From the NCBI RefSeq assembly GCF_014202945.1, contig NZ_JACHHW010000002.1, forward strand, positions 248,001 through 312,000: DNA of 64,000 bases, in the 5' to 3' direction. How positions within the stretch are numbered: position 1 is the first letter of the stretch; each line of letters starts with the position of its first letter. Position numbers and translations under genes: made by a program. Below are positions 26,058-30,581 of the stretch, in pieces. Below the pieces are notes generated by a model. That model did no database searches and had not been told where the DNA came from. It saw only the letters and a list, made by a program, of their open reading frames with translations. The stretch is from Zhongshania antarctica (GTDB taxonomy: Bacteria; Pseudomonadota; Gammaproteobacteria; Pseudomonadales; Spongiibacteraceae).

Positions 26058-26183
26058 GTATTAAGCGCCTAAAATTCAAGGCGCAGCGACAGAAGGTGGG
26101 ATTTACACAGAGAAAGGATGAATTAAAACGGAAAAGCGAGCAAAGGGGCGGGAGCAGCTGAGATTTGCGCTCGCGGCCAATAA

Positions 26184-26457
26184 GGATTAACCAATCCAGC
26201 CTTAAGACTGTATTGCCAAAGGTTCTCGCAGATCAAGCAAACCAAAATCAAAAAACCGGCGCAAGGCCGGCTACTTCAACGTAATTTGGCCTGAACACTG
26301 TAAAGAGGATTAATCAAAACAGCCTCTGGGCTGTATTGACCCCTGCGGGGCCGCGTCGCTTCACTCCTTGTTTAAATTGCGCCGCGGGCACAATTTATCG
26401 AACCTAGAGAGGCTCTCACCGATCAAACGCACCAAAACCAAAAAGCCGGCACAAGGC
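26184..26457. repeat. Two decayed copies of a tRNA-terminator-containing unit
   Basis: Copy A (26184-26216 plus 26221-26267) and copy B (26307-26338 plus 26411-26457) share a GGATTAA...CTGTATTG block and a 47-bp block with 38 identical positions. The 47-bp block of copy B contains the tRNA-Arg 3' end and terminator arm; copy A keeps a degenerate hairpin (CCGGC/GCCGG). Confidence 0.6.
26449..26457. repeat. Target-site duplication, left copy
   Basis: GCACAAGGC, identical to 30482-30490, abuts the left terminal inverted repeat of the 4.0-kb element. Confidence 0.92.
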
Positions 26458-26483
26458 AAAGGCAGTGCGGTTATCTGTTGATA
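26458..26483 (+). repeat. Left terminal inverted repeat
   Basis: 26 bp, matching the reverse complement of 30456-30481 except at two positions (inner positions 6 and 14). Ends inward in TTGATA. Confidence 0.93.
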
Positions 26484-26511
26484 ACCTTGATCTTGCATAG
26501 CGGAGAAAACA

Positions 26512-26546
26512 AAAAGAGGGGCTCTCCAAGTGAAAGCCCCTCTTTT
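26512..26546. terminator. Bidirectional terminator inside the element's left end
   Basis: Twelve-base-pair perfect stem AAAAGAGGGGCT/AGCCCCTCTTTT around an 11-base loop. It would stop transcription entering from the left before the HEPN gene. Confidence 0.88.
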
Positions 26547-27055
26547 CTTTTACTAACAATAAGTTACATGAGTTATTAAACCGCTATTTAAGTATACAAC
26601 AGTAGATATATAAGTCTCTCCCTATTATATCAACCCCTCCTCACTACTAGAAAACCTTGAGGCAGTGGCCGCTACGTCATATTTGAGGGCTACCCCTTCA
26701 TTTCTGACCATAAAGTCAGCCCGCAAACAAAGGCAATCAACCGAATTCAATAAACCCTTAACCCCCTACTTCACGTCGACAAGGCACGTGAGGAACCGCT
26801 TCACTCCCTCTCCCTCTCCTATATTGGAGAGCTACTTAACTCATTGAAATATAAAAATAACGCGATATGATGAGGGAAATGATATGTTTGTCGGAAATAA
26901 ATAAAATTAGCCTCCGCTTGACCTGCGCCCGCTAATAGCGAAGTCGCCAGCTCAAAGAATTCACCTGATTTTTGTAATCCGGTCTTTGTTAACAAGACCC
27001 AAGTGATAGCGAAACCCAGTTTCTATAACTAACAGTTAAATTTTGGGAGTAACGA
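26547..27055. other. Non-coding stretch before the HEPN gene
   Basis: About 500 bp without a convincing gene on either strand. The promoter of the HEPN gene should lie here, but no clear -35/-10 pair stands out. The short reading frames present lack ribosome sites and protein-like composition. Confidence 0.4.
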
Positions 27056-28246
27056 GTGTCCCGTGCCGTAACCGCTGATCATGTCTTATTTGATGAATGT
27101 ATAGACTCTTTTCGCATGCAACGAGCTGACTACCGTCCATTTATTCCTGGTGAAAGCTATTCATTTTTATTGACACCATTTGAATTAACTGACGAGTGGG
27201 ATTTGGGGATATGCAAGGTATCTTCGTCGATTACAGTTGGTTTACCTGGAGCTTATTCGGCATTTATTAGCAAAGTAAAAAATCCTGATTGGGTGGATAA
27301 TCATAATTCACACCTTTTTGGGATAGCTTTAGCAACAATCGTTTCGGCAATATCTCTTAAATTATGCAAGTCTACAAGAGATGACTATTTGTGTAGGCGC
27401 GATGATTTATCAAGTGACGACATTAATCAACTTGCAATACTATATCCAGTACTAGTTGCTGGCCCAGGTGCAACAAATCCAAGGATTCCCAAGGTAAAAC
27501 AAGACATGATGCGGGCTGAGGTCGAAAATATTATTAATATTTTACGTTCTCTAGAATACAAGACGTACCGATCTGTCATGCAAAGCTTTCGGCTCATACA
27601 TCTTTCATTATTAGCAAAGAGAGATGATTTTGGCCTTGCTTACCTTTTGGCAGTCTCCTCCATTGAGTCAATCGCTCAAAAAGCAATTAAAAGAGATAAA
27701 GTTAAGAAAAAGCATCCCGATGAAGTCGCATGGAAGCAGAAGGCAGAGGGCGACCCACTATTTCAAACGCTTCTTAGCGAGTATCTGGAGTCACGGGGAA
27801 AAAATGAGTATTTGAAAGAGCGATTTGTAAGGTTTATAAAAAAATATGCACCTATCGAGGAGTGGGAAAAATACATTCAACATCCGATGCAAGATATGGC
27901 TGATTCAATCAAAGAGGCAAATCCGTCTCACAACTTAGAACACTTAACTCGTAAGAGTTTTTTTGAGAAATATCCAGAGGACTTGACTGCCGAAGAGATA
28001 GATTCGATATTGGCTGATGCTTATGCCCACCGCTCATGTTTTGTTCATAGGGGGGAACAACCTCCTCACACTGACCCAAATTCTTCTTTTAATCGCTTCT
28101 TTCAAGAAGTCAGAGAGTATGACGGTTATAATATAAAAGAAGCAGTTCTTCCAAATTATGAATTGATTTTAGGCCTTGCCAAGAACTCAATATCTAATTG
28201 GTTATCCGAAAAATTTAGGCAAGCATTGCAGCCGAAAAATCCATAA
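27056..28246 (+). CDS. HEPN-motif protein, transposon passenger
   Basis: A 396-residue protein starting at a GTG with GGGAG 6-7 bases upstream. The C-terminal part carries the HEPN RNase-type signature R326-x4-H331 within AYAHRSCFVHRGE, and a helix LAYLLAVSSIESIA (194-207) typical of Apea-like HEPN domains. The N-terminal ~180 residues are unrecognised. The gene is visibly richer in A+T than the host genes. As cargo of a transposon it may be a toxin or defence effector; no antitoxin-like partner gene is adjacent. Domain assignment is by motif only. Confidence 0.7.
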   Translation: MSRAVTADHVLFDECIDSFRMQRADYRPFIPGESYSFLLTPFELTDEWDLGICKVSSSITVGLPGAYSAFISKVKNPDWVDNHNSHLFGIALATIVSAISLKLCKSTRDDYLCRRDDLSSDDINQLAILYPVLVAGPGATNPRIPKVKQDMMRAEVENIINILRSLEYKTYRSVMQSFRLIHLSLLAKRDDFGLAYLLAVSSIESIAQKAIKRDKVKKKHPDEVAWKQKAEGDPLFQTLLSEYLESRGKNEYLKERFVRFIKKYAPIEEWEKYIQHPMQDMADSIKEANPSHNLEHLTRKSFFEKYPEDLTAEEIDSILADAYAHRSCFVHRGEQPPHTDPNSSFNRFFQEVREYDGYNIKEAVLPNYELILGLAKNSISNWLSEKFRQALQPKNP

Positions 28247-28403
28247 ATACTGTATGGAGATTGCGACCCTCATCGAGTTCGGTGTTTTTGAACGACTATC
28301 TGCCACCGAACTAGATATATTCATTCGGTTGTTAAGCCGCCGCATATCCAAGAGTGCGCGCCGGTGATGCTAGTTTCAGCGTATTCAGGCGTGGAATTAA
28401 ATG

Positions 28404-30398
28404 TCAGAAGTAGATTATATCTTCTACTCGCACTTTACCTTTAGCCAGCCCCAACTTCATTGCCGGTGTTTTAGCGTCTTTTTTACTGACAAGGCAATAG
28501 TTGTAATAAACACGAAAAATATCGAGTAGCTTCTGAATCATTGCTGGATTGTAAGGACTATAGCCATACCAAGTTCGGCCTCCACTTGATGCTGACTTGA
28601 TGGGGCGTTCAATCATGCTAAGGCGACGTCTAGCTTGCATAAAAAATCGATCAATTCCAAATGCGCTTGCCATATAAAAAAGTTGAGCCTGATGATCTAA
28701 GTCGTAATCCCCCATGTCAGTTAGCCAGCATACTGCTTTTTCTGGTTCGTATCGTTTAGCGATCGGGTGCAAAACCCATCGATCCCTCCATGGCCCTAAT
28801 TCCTCAACCCGTTCAAGTTCGTCTCGAATTAGGGCCAGGTGCGCCTCCTTTTCAGTTGCTTCAGGATTGACAAGAAGGTAGGCCCGGACTCTTGCTGCCG
28901 TCATTTTGGTAGCTTCAATTTTCCTGTCTATAATCAGATCTTTTAAGTATTTTACGTACCAGCCGTCAGCGCTTCGATCTTTAACTCTATCGCCAAATGT
29001 GGCCATAAATGCAGCCCTGATTCCAGATTCTTGATCCATGTAAAATCTAACTTTCTCGGTATGCTTAAACATTTCTTTTAGAAAGAAGAAGTGGCCATAC
29101 ATCGTGTATTCAGAGTGAACCTGCATACCGTTAACAGGTAGCTGCATTGATTCTTCAAAATATTCACTCACTTCAGTATCCAGCCGCTCAAGAACACGGT
29201 TATATGCTTTTAAAACCTCATCAATGACATTTCCGCTTTCCGAGTCTTCGGCTGATATTTTAGCTTCTGTAATTGCGACCTGCTCAGCAGGTGTAACTTC
29301 TTGAGATGAAAAGATTCTTTCGATATCTTCCGGTGAAAATGACAGCTCGTATTTATATTCTAAATCTCTAATGATCTGCTCTAGCGAGGTCATGCGCCGA
29401 TCACGATCTATCTCTTTTTGGCTTGAAAGCTTTTCCCTATGCTTTTTCTTAGATGCAGCAACAGCCGAATTATAATCGTCTTCTAGCCAATAGTGCCCCC
29501 ATTGACGGAAAGCCTGATCTTTATCAAGGTCACCTAATAATTTCGCCTCTTGATTGATATCAGCAGGCTTGAACGTATCATCATAATTAACAGTAAGCGG
29601 GAAGACATAGCCCGATCGGTTATCTGCGGTACCAACACCCATGAATTGAACGTGCCTACGAATTTTCGCGCTTCGCCAGTTGGAATGATACATCTGCCTA
29701 TCTGTACTGAGATAAAGCCTCTTATGCGATATTTCTCCGCTCAAGTATCGTCGCTCTCGATCTCCGATAAATCGCATGCACTGATCATGAAAAAAATCGA
29801 TGCGTCGGTAGAGCGTGTGTTTATCAATATCTGTTATTTCTAAAATTCTTCCCAAAGGCATTTTATTCATCAAAAGTTTGAATAGGATGATATTAAGGTG
29901 AGTATCTGTCTGTCGCCTTACTGGACGGATTCTTATGGAGAAGGTTTTTCCACATCCCTCAGCTTTACACTGATATCTGGCCGAACCGGAATCGGTAACT
30001 CCGAATTTACGATACGCGCTAGGGTGCGTGTAGATTCCAAGCGCGTGATGAGCGCACGCCTCATTCCTGCATGATGGTTCATCACGCCTAATATAGCCGG
30101 CGATACGATTAAGTTCCGATGCTATGCCAATATTCGACTTGGCAGCAAAGACCTCGCCACACGACTTACATTTATAGGCTGGCGCTCTTTTGCCAACAGC
30201 AACTAAGGTATAGCATGGGTCTGCGCCCGTCTTTTTACCACGACTACTACCTCTTTCACCCTGCGTAGCAGGGATATGGAAGTTAGCGCACTGAGGGTTT
30301 TTACAGAAGTTTACTTGAATGCCCTGGCAGGCTTCTGGGACACGCGGGTCTTTTATGGGCTGATGATCTGTCGGAGATTTTACCGGCGGCATTTGCAT
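28404..30398 (-). CDS. Large zinc-finger DDE transposase
   Basis: A 664-residue protein. The N-terminus has two tandem zinc-binding units: C32-x4-C37 with C77-x2-C80, and C110-x4-C115 with C144-x4-C149, each second pair in a Y-x-C-K-x-C-G-x-x-F context. A helix-turn-helix follows (GRILEITDIDKHTLYRRIDFF). Putative catalytic triad: D233 (LYLSTDRQ), D455 (FYMDQESG) and E597 (MIERPIK), with a ~150-residue charged helical insertion between the first two. The end (YYNYC...KTPAMKLGL) is typical of DDE integrase-fold transposases. The ATG at 30392 (third codon) is better spaced from AAGGGG than the one at 30398. Confidence 0.82.
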   Translation of the reverse strand: MQMPPVKSPTDHQPIKDPRVPEACQGIQVNFCKNPQCANFHIPATQGERGSSRGKKTGADPCYTLVAVGKRAPAYKCKSCGEVFAAKSNIGIASELNRIAGYIRRDEPSCRNEACAHHALGIYTHPSAYRKFGVTDSGSARYQCKAEGCGKTFSIRIRPVRRQTDTHLNIILFKLLMNKMPLGRILEITDIDKHTLYRRIDFFHDQCMRFIGDRERRYLSGEISHKRLYLSTDRQMYHSNWRSAKIRRHVQFMGVGTADNRSGYVFPLTVNYDDTFKPADINQEAKLLGDLDKDQAFRQWGHYWLEDDYNSAVAASKKKHREKLSSQKEIDRDRRMTSLEQIIRDLEYKYELSFSPEDIERIFSSQEVTPAEQVAITEAKISAEDSESGNVIDEVLKAYNRVLERLDTEVSEYFEESMQLPVNGMQVHSEYTMYGHFFFLKEMFKHTEKVRFYMDQESGIRAAFMATFGDRVKDRSADGWYVKYLKDLIIDRKIEATKMTAARVRAYLLVNPEATEKEAHLALIRDELERVEELGPWRDRWVLHPIAKRYEPEKAVCWLTDMGDYDLDHQAQLFYMASAFGIDRFFMQARRRLSMIERPIKSASSGGRTWYGYSPYNPAMIQKLLDIFRVYYNYCLVSKKDAKTPAMKLGLAKGKVRVEDIIYF

Positions 30399-30435
30399 AT
30401 CCCCTTACATGTATATCTATACAGTGTAAGGGGAT
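30399..30435 (-). promoter_or_regulatory. RBS-sequestering palindrome at the transposase start
   Basis: ATCCCCTTACA (30399-30409) and its exact complement (30425-30435) enclose TGTATA-TC-TATACA, giving a nearly continuous 17-bp stem. On the mRNA strand the 3' arm contains the AAGGGG ribosome-binding site of the transposase. Only transcripts starting upstream of 30435 contain both arms. Confidence 0.75.
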
Positions 30436-30461
30436 TGTAGCAGAGGCGGCTGGAATATCAA
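30434..30461 (-). promoter_or_regulatory. Transposase promoter, -35 in the terminal repeat
   Basis: Read on the minus strand, TTGATA (30461-30456, the inner end of the right terminal repeat) and TACAAT (30439-30434) are separated by 16 bases, each 5/6 to consensus. Expected start of transcription is near 30427, inside the 5' arm of the palindrome. Confidence 0.6.
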
Positions 30462-30481
30462 CAGATAGCCGCACTCCCTTT
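30456..30481 (-). repeat. Right terminal inverted repeat
   Basis: 26 bp, reverse complement of 26458-26483 with two mismatches; carries the transposase -35 element. Confidence 0.93.
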
Positions 30482-30490
30482 GCACAAGGC
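30482..30490. repeat. Target-site duplication, right copy
   Basis: GCACAAGGC, identical to 26449-26457. Confidence 0.92.
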
Positions 30491-30504
30491 CGGCTTTTTG
30501 GTTT

Positions 30505-30581
<77 letters not shown>

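Follow-up and report, generated by a model that had tools for sequence, protein, structure and literature searches.

A transposon of Zhongshania antarctica and its relatives appear to insert at the apex of intrinsic terminators

The element described here is a 4,024-bp transposon with one transposase gene and one passenger gene, located at positions 26458-30481 of a 64,000-nucleotide stretch of the Zhongshania antarctica genome (assembly GCF_014202945.1, contig NZ_JACHHW010000002.1, positions 248,001 to 312,000; hereafter the window). We conclude that it very probably belongs to a widespread family of DDE-type transposons that carry cargo, and that the transposase of this family chooses intrinsic terminators as its targets, especially symmetric (bidirectional) ones. 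The ends, the duplication, the empty site, the family-wide placement at the terminator apex and the A- and T-tracts at fixed distances are read directly from sequence, and evidence for the target rule comes from the window, from held-out sites and, to some extent, from a clinical relative that carries dfrG.

The preliminary description of this DNA had claimed a transposon of about 4 kb with exact boundaries, and the terminal inverted repeats (TIRs) and perfect 9-bp duplication bear this out (Table 1). The TIR pair scores 22 in the end search and the next best pair in the same locus scores 6. The end sequence, allowing up to three mismatches, occurs only twice in the 3.85-Mb genome (26 contigs), both times as the element's own ends, and the transposase has one match in that genome. 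Removal of the element and one copy of the duplication restores a perfect 23-bp stem with a 5-nt loop (-44 kcal/mol), the terminator of the adjoining tRNA-Arg gene. The duplication takes in the loop of this terminator with two inner base pairs to either side, and the arms outside it pair at 12 of 12 positions. An uninterrupted copy of the hairpin occupies the orthologous site in two genomes of the same genus (L069 and, with one stem mismatch, L068), both of which match the window on the left and the right flank of the insertion site. The hairpin had been read correctly as proof of insertion; what the preliminary description missed is that the family appears to select hairpins of this kind as targets. 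Among 18 other loci with the same or a similar tRNA, a terminator hairpin adjoins the tRNA in nine (L068, L069, L080, L081, L086-L089 and L091), and none was found within the 110 bases examined at the remaining nine.

Table 1. Features of the transposon, its genes and its target site, in window positions.
Feature	Positions	Strand	Remarks
Interrupted tRNA-Arg terminator, left arm (target half-site)	26428-26450	+	Restored-hairpin fold
Target-site duplication, left copy	26449-26457		9 bp, GCACAAGGC
Left TIR (cargo end)	26458-26483	+	26 bp, 24/26 match with right TIR
Hairpin with A-tract and T-tract just inside cargo end	26504-26554		Candidate replacement terminator
Passenger gene	27056-28246	+	Open reading frame, 396 residues, GTG start; RX4H motif R326-H331
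Transposase gene	28404-30398	-	Open reading frame, 664 residues; N-terminal Cys clusters, zinc/helix-turn-helix region, catalytic core
Palindrome between transposase start and right TIR	30401-30434		CCCCTTACA...TGTAAGGGG; without T-tract
Right TIR (transposase end)	30456-30481	-	26 bp, 24/26 match with left TIR
Target-site duplication, right copy	30482-30490		9 bp, perfect copy of GCACAAGGC
Interrupted tRNA-Arg terminator, right arm (target half-site)	30489-30511	+	Overlaps tRNA 3' end
tRNA-Arg (CCG), gene whose terminator was hit	30505-30581	-	tRNA prediction

An 8-10-bp duplication adjoining an inverted repeat was sought around each related transposase. Both ends and such a duplication were found at 45 of 67 loci, window included (19/32 in a first set and 26/35 in a second), and loci without them (13/32 and 9/35) were left out of the site counts. 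The second set was run after the terminator idea had been written down and is treated as held-out. Dropping one shared site (L059 = L046) leaves 44 independent sites (18 + 26). Accepted repeats score 16-28, and the next unrelated pair scores at most 10 where distinguishable; the weakest accepted element, L222, scores 16 with a next pair of 10. The elements measure 1.8-10.6 kb, and their duplications span 9 bp at 21 and 10 bp at 23 of the 44 sites, under a length rule that prefers the longer reading and may over-count 10 bp. The window element shares with the family a large transposase, TIRs of about 26 bp in register, a 9-10-bp duplication and insertion at a terminator apex.

Complementarity of the arms just outside the duplication was judged at the 5% level, with all positions of the locus in question as background. 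Held-out sites have complementary arms at this level in 19 of 26 cases, compared with 1.3 expected (binomial p 9e-20), and arms significant at 1% in 13 and at 0.1% in 11; the first set has them in 11 of 18 independent sites, with L050 scored without a recognised duplication. An A-run and a T-run, each of at least 4, are both present in 16/26 held-out sites and in 27/44 overall (either in 40/44). The corresponding figures are 11/146 for other terminator-like hairpins in these flanks and 0.43% for positions overall. Pooled over the 44 sites, A stands at -9 in 38 and at -8 in 39, and T at +8 in 36 and at +9 in 33. The five positions adjoining the duplication are about 70% G+C, and their pairing (3.70) is reached by none of 500 partner shuffles (maximum 2.80). 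Host genes at the sites are convergent in 15, co-directional in 17 and divergent in one of 33 classified cases (11 unclassified), whereas control gene pairs number 54 convergent, 189 co-directional and 51 divergent. Copies of the dfrG element (3,275-3,276 bp) were read at eight plasmid or phage loci picked from many records; two of these loci share a site, which leaves seven distinct sites. All seven are flanked by an A-run (left) and a T-run (right) of 4 or more bases each, but the arms did not pair significantly at L048 and L050, the two sites tested. As a small control, 19 IS1/IS1595-like loci yielded four with detectable ends, none of which has complementary arms at 5%.

We propose that a symmetric transposase complex would read a palindrome of A-tract, G+C stem, loop, G+C stem and T-tract and join the two transposon ends to opposite strands, at points staggered by 9-10 bp across the terminator loop, which repair would then duplicate. 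We infer that the hairpin may be recognised in its folded form. Such an insertion would split the terminator and leave coding sequence intact, with the passenger travelling as cargo, and in many members hairpins at the element ends would stop incoming host transcription and may replace the destroyed terminator. Hairpins opposing incoming transcription lie 22-112 bp inside the element at 20/43 transposase ends and 13/43 cargo ends, compared with 26/840 and 19/840 intergenic control windows, and hairpins of the opposite orientation are rarer (5 and 8, respectively). In the 220 bp at the cargo end, a hairpin was found in 25/44 elements against 23/435 random flank pieces; because related elements share ends, none of these counts are independent. 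The palindrome beside the transposase start gave no terminator-like hairpin under the hairpin rule used and is possibly an autoregulatory operator. To the left of the element, 26180-26457 appears to be a decayed second copy of the region downstream of tRNA-Arg that includes a broken terminator hairpin of its own near 26250-26275 (short repeat D5).

The preliminary description called the transposase unusually large, in agreement with its single 664-residue open reading frame (ORF). Residues 129-225 form an IS1/IS1595-like zinc/helix-turn-helix (HTH) region. Sixteen family transposases were aligned for residue and model comparisons, and D233 and D455 are invariant among them. A third catalytic candidate, D583, is D in 14 and N in two, with an invariant R at +7 (R590); the alternative, E597, is E in 15. 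D583 is probably the better candidate because the family motif IDRFFMQVR resembles IERHNLNLR of IS1 InsB in its spacing, and IS256-type enzymes have a motif of the same spacing. A PDB profile search with the zinc region removed gave a sole match at E <= 5, the Mutator family transposase 6xg8 (presumably ISCth4; E 0.009, 111 positions), which spans the second invariant aspartate and stops short of the third residue; when the zinc region was left in, the hits were mostly eukaryotic zinc fingers. The core may thus weakly resemble that of Mutator/IS256 enzymes.

Two groups of relatives depart from this architecture. DnaQ-type 3'-5' exonuclease models match one of the 16 transposases (NCBIfam E 9e-50), which is, judged by length and N-terminal extension, that of L058 (7947-10499); its relatives L197, L198, L199, L203, L204, L205 and L209 have transposase ORFs of 804-861 residues and probably share the fusion. 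At L060-L066 (e.g., L061:8919-10412, + strand), a relative of 489-515 residues is found in all seven loci examined. Its eight zinc cysteines are conserved, P replaces the second catalytic aspartate, and the first aspartate is retained only in L061. A deoD-like motif lies within the same 18-kb stretch in 7/7 of these loci, directly upstream in L061. This relative is probably a domesticated, catalytically dead DNA-binding protein.

Transposase matches were found in 2/18 genomes of the genus (the element's own and one other), in 11/369 genomes of the class, 20/398 of a phylum sample and 5/78 of another sample, and in 32/216, 15/218 and 2/218 genomes of three families; these counts include the query genome where sampled, and some of the matches are short and cover the zinc region only. 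Matches also occur in 129/72,556 plasmid and 2/50,697 phage records, and none was found in the viral contigs scanned. In a genome of the same genus (G016), the family element L059 occupies the same site as L046 on a Marinobacter plasmid, and its transposase is interrupted by ORFs of 547 and 251 residues that resemble IS21 istA and istB. L004 has perfect 24-bp ends and no duplication and was not counted. A 10.1-kb stretch of Polaromonas JS666 plasmid 2 (L129:820-10941), with ends matching at 22/24 positions and a damaged duplication, was likewise not counted; it carries AAA, HNH and HepT-like genes and is probably a family member.

Cargo, defined as at least one ORF of at least 100 residues that does not match the transposase, is present at 36 of the 44 sites (74 ORFs), although some of these ORFs may be transposase fragments, as probably in L222. 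Scans covered the cargo of 23 of the 36 elements, window included (40 ORFs plus the window passenger), 10 of the 40 also being searched against PADLOC, and defence-type matches were found in 10 of the 23. Methylase and/or restriction genes are carried by L051, L052, L053, L054 and L216, Septu PtuA with an HNH gene by L203, Gabija GajA with a UvrD-type helicase by L204, and a Tmn match by L195. Pfam matches alone identify a patatin with a DncV-like nucleotidyltransferase in L220, which is CBASS-like, and a reverse transcriptase in L205, which may be retron-like. Both L048 and L050 carry dfrG. Other cargo includes RND and cation efflux genes (L196), a serine beta-lactamase-fold protein (L201), an esterase with a two-component system (L202), an MFS transporter (L218), an acyltransferase (L212), a PEP-CTERM protein (L199) and an integrase-core fragment of another mobile element (L194). 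Several of the scanned cargo sets gave no family match.

The window passenger had been described earlier as a HEPN-motif protein. Proteins with a HEPN domain combine an RX4-6H motif with an all-helical fold. The RX4H motif (R326, H331) is present and is kept in a 44%-identical homologue on the Carnobacterium plasmid pCAR50 (L229:6001-7185), whose first 16 residues are identical, and no Pfam, NCBIfam or PADLOC model matches the passenger. No transposase is annotated in the 13-kb stretch surrounding the pCAR50 homologue. The passenger was found in 1/299 genomes of the phylum sample, its own, and on one plasmid, and it was not found in phage records or in the viral contigs scanned. Its AlphaFold model, predicted from the passenger alone, has a predicted local distance difference test (pLDDT) score of 39.1 and gives no usable fold. 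Our best guess is that the passenger is a HEPN-type (RNase-like) defence protein.

Near-random insertion, of which only harmless insertions at gene ends persist, would also make terminators look enriched, and the sites do lie mostly at gene 3' ends with coding sequence spared. However, such survivorship would not centre the duplication on the hairpin axis with equidistant A- and T-tracts in most of the 44 sites, nor would it favour symmetric terminators over others nearby. The near-identical 3.3-kb dfrG element occupies seven distinct sites of this kind, and the IS1/IS1595-like copies lack the centring, although only four were testable. We consider survivorship highly improbable. The strongly fixed A and T positions are also what would be expected if the transposase read a linear motif (A-tract/GC/N9/GC/T-tract) in ordinary duplex with incidental arm pairing, a possible but doubtful explanation given that the G+C zone pairs better than in all partner shuffles, a comparison which cannot separate an unfolded palindrome from a folded hairpin. 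A transposase recruited by an RNA polymerase that pauses or terminates at the hairpin, and not by the DNA, would fit the resemblance of the targets to terminators at gene ends, but one-directional termination needs no symmetry of the kind seen in the preference for symmetric terminators and in A-tracts as strong as T-tracts, and we regard such recruitment as improbable.

It could also be asked whether these are ordinary IS1 or IS1595 members with passengers, already present in ISfinder. The NCBIfam IS1 model matches 15 of the 16 members at E <= 0.01 (in the zinc/HTH region in the seven with coordinates), and dfrG islands are tied to 'IS1595' and 'ISSsu9', which are mentioned beside them in the available text of PMC8343405. 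Against this, the seven members score 20-36 bits with a cut-off of 100 (the window transposase 29 bits, over residues 129-225; among the other nine the lowest E is 6.9e-12), and E. coli InsB, used as a control, scores 143.7. The IS1595 model (cut-off 75 bits) matches neither the window transposase nor six other members and is absent among the matches listed for all 16 (25 of 34 families), while two IS1595 copies used as controls, L155 and L156, clear its cut-off with 178-179 bits. Pfam DDE models match none of the 16 at E <= 0.01, and a Pfam scan of the window transposase gave nothing better than E 0.02. Ordinary membership therefore seems unlikely to us, though part of the family, set apart here by NCBIfam and Pfam models, may already be catalogued in ISfinder. 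The large-element subgroups ISMhu11, ISNwi1 and ISNha5 belong to IS1/IS1595, and no paper that links ISMhu11 with the IS1 family was found in the literature searched.

Several observations weigh against the selection of terminator apices by this family, or against parts of that proposal. The 5% level is missed by 7/26 held-out and 7/18 first-set sites. By eye, six of the seven held-out misses look like off-centre terminators, the exception being L222. Among the first-set misses, L043 and L055 are off-centre terminators by eye, L048 and L050 have the tracts with weak stems, L053 has a short palindrome only, and L047 and L057 have nothing terminator-like. The fixed-centre pairing test misses off-centre hairpins, L043 scoring 1/12 though its flanks form a hairpin. 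An earlier fold-energy test, in which boundaries were one base off at five sites, reached the 5% level at 9/15 sites against intergenic positions and 8/15 against all positions, and sites of related elements are partly non-independent. The window element itself lacks a terminator-like hairpin at its transposase end, so that tRNA-Arg transcription would run toward the transposase gene, and its transposition was not observed. The third catalytic residue has two candidates (D583 or E597), the AlphaFold model of the transposase (5 sequences) has a pLDDT of 45.9 and is unusable for fold searches, and the HEPN assignment of the passenger rests on one motif and one homologue.

Terminators seem to serve this family as safe landing pads. 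Its target rule makes the landing site, the loop of a symmetric terminator, predictable, and it suggests a route by which restriction systems, Gabija, Septu, CBASS-like and Tmn genes and the clinically relevant dfrG could enter genomes with host genes unbroken. Large zinc-finger transposases rejected by curated models would also gain a definable target and a testable mechanism. Tentatively, the transposase may read the folded hairpin as an extruded cruciform or single-stranded DNA; the elements' own end terminators would then make insertion an almost silent terminator exchange, and the family would be a general means of carrying defence and resistance genes to safe harbours present in every bacterial genome. 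If so, the dead relative beside deoD would be a domesticated terminator- or hairpin-binding protein. Structural recognition would also provide a second route to terminators beside that of IS1272 and a possible structure-guided insertion tool.

The family shares features with several known groups. IS1 elements make 8-9-bp target duplications and encode a transposase of about 230 residues in an InsA/InsB frameshift arrangement. The family has a similar zinc-finger/HTH region (hhalign 93% with InsA) and the 9-bp duplication; unlike IS1, it falls below the model cut-off, has a single large ORF in place of the frameshift arrangement, and its catalytic half fails to align with InsB (hhalign probability 0.2%). 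A relationship to IS1 is demonstrable only in the zinc-finger/HTH region. IS1595 elements make 8-bp duplications; the zinc/HTH region is again alike (hhalign 96% with L155), whereas the family has no match to the IS1595 catalytic model and duplicates 9-10 bp. Mutator/IS256 enzymes have an RNase-H-like core with a helical insertion ahead of the third catalytic residue. With them the family shares the weak profile match at the second aspartate, a long stretch before the third candidate residue and a 9-10-bp duplication, although no full-length IS256 model passes. Prokaryotic Mutator families target promoters or look random, according to the available text of PMC3942029.

The closest named relative is Tn7491, a dfrG trimethoprim-resistance transposon within Tn6198, for which the available text of PMC10763498 names an inverted repeat and a 9-bp duplication and locates another copy between two convergent genes; the main text of that paper nowhere uses the word 'terminator'. 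The dfrG-linked protein is called an insertion element protein, apparently always linked to dfrG, in the part of PMC8638950 available. Tn7491 resembles the window element in its large transposase, a homologue with 25.5% identity (E 8e-14) across 76% of the query, and in TIRs in the same register, 9-bp duplication and cargo located 3' of the transposase on the opposite strand, and it differs in an extra small ORF before the transposase, N for D at one candidate catalytic position and other cargo. By these comparisons Tn7491 is a distant family member. The element had been called unfamiliar, and the curated models scanned do reject its transposase, but relatives are widespread, if poorly catalogued, and this distant one is named in print.

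Among the matches listed, from a search that left most subscription journals outside its reach, no paper was found on terminator targeting by this family, and IS1272 was the sole other terminator-targeting transposon recognised. Hairpin-targeting transposition is known, then, and this enzyme family with its loop-duplicating mode at terminators is undescribed as far as searched. As given in the available text of PMC4923244, IS1272/TnSha1 (IS1182 family) inserts into hairpins, several of them confirmed terminators, and carries cargo; it inserts bluntly, removing some of the stem, and leaves no duplication. The family described here is like IS1272/TnSha1 in its hairpin or terminator targets and its cargo, whereas the window element has a perfect 9-bp duplication, in which the loop is duplicated rather than the stem deleted.

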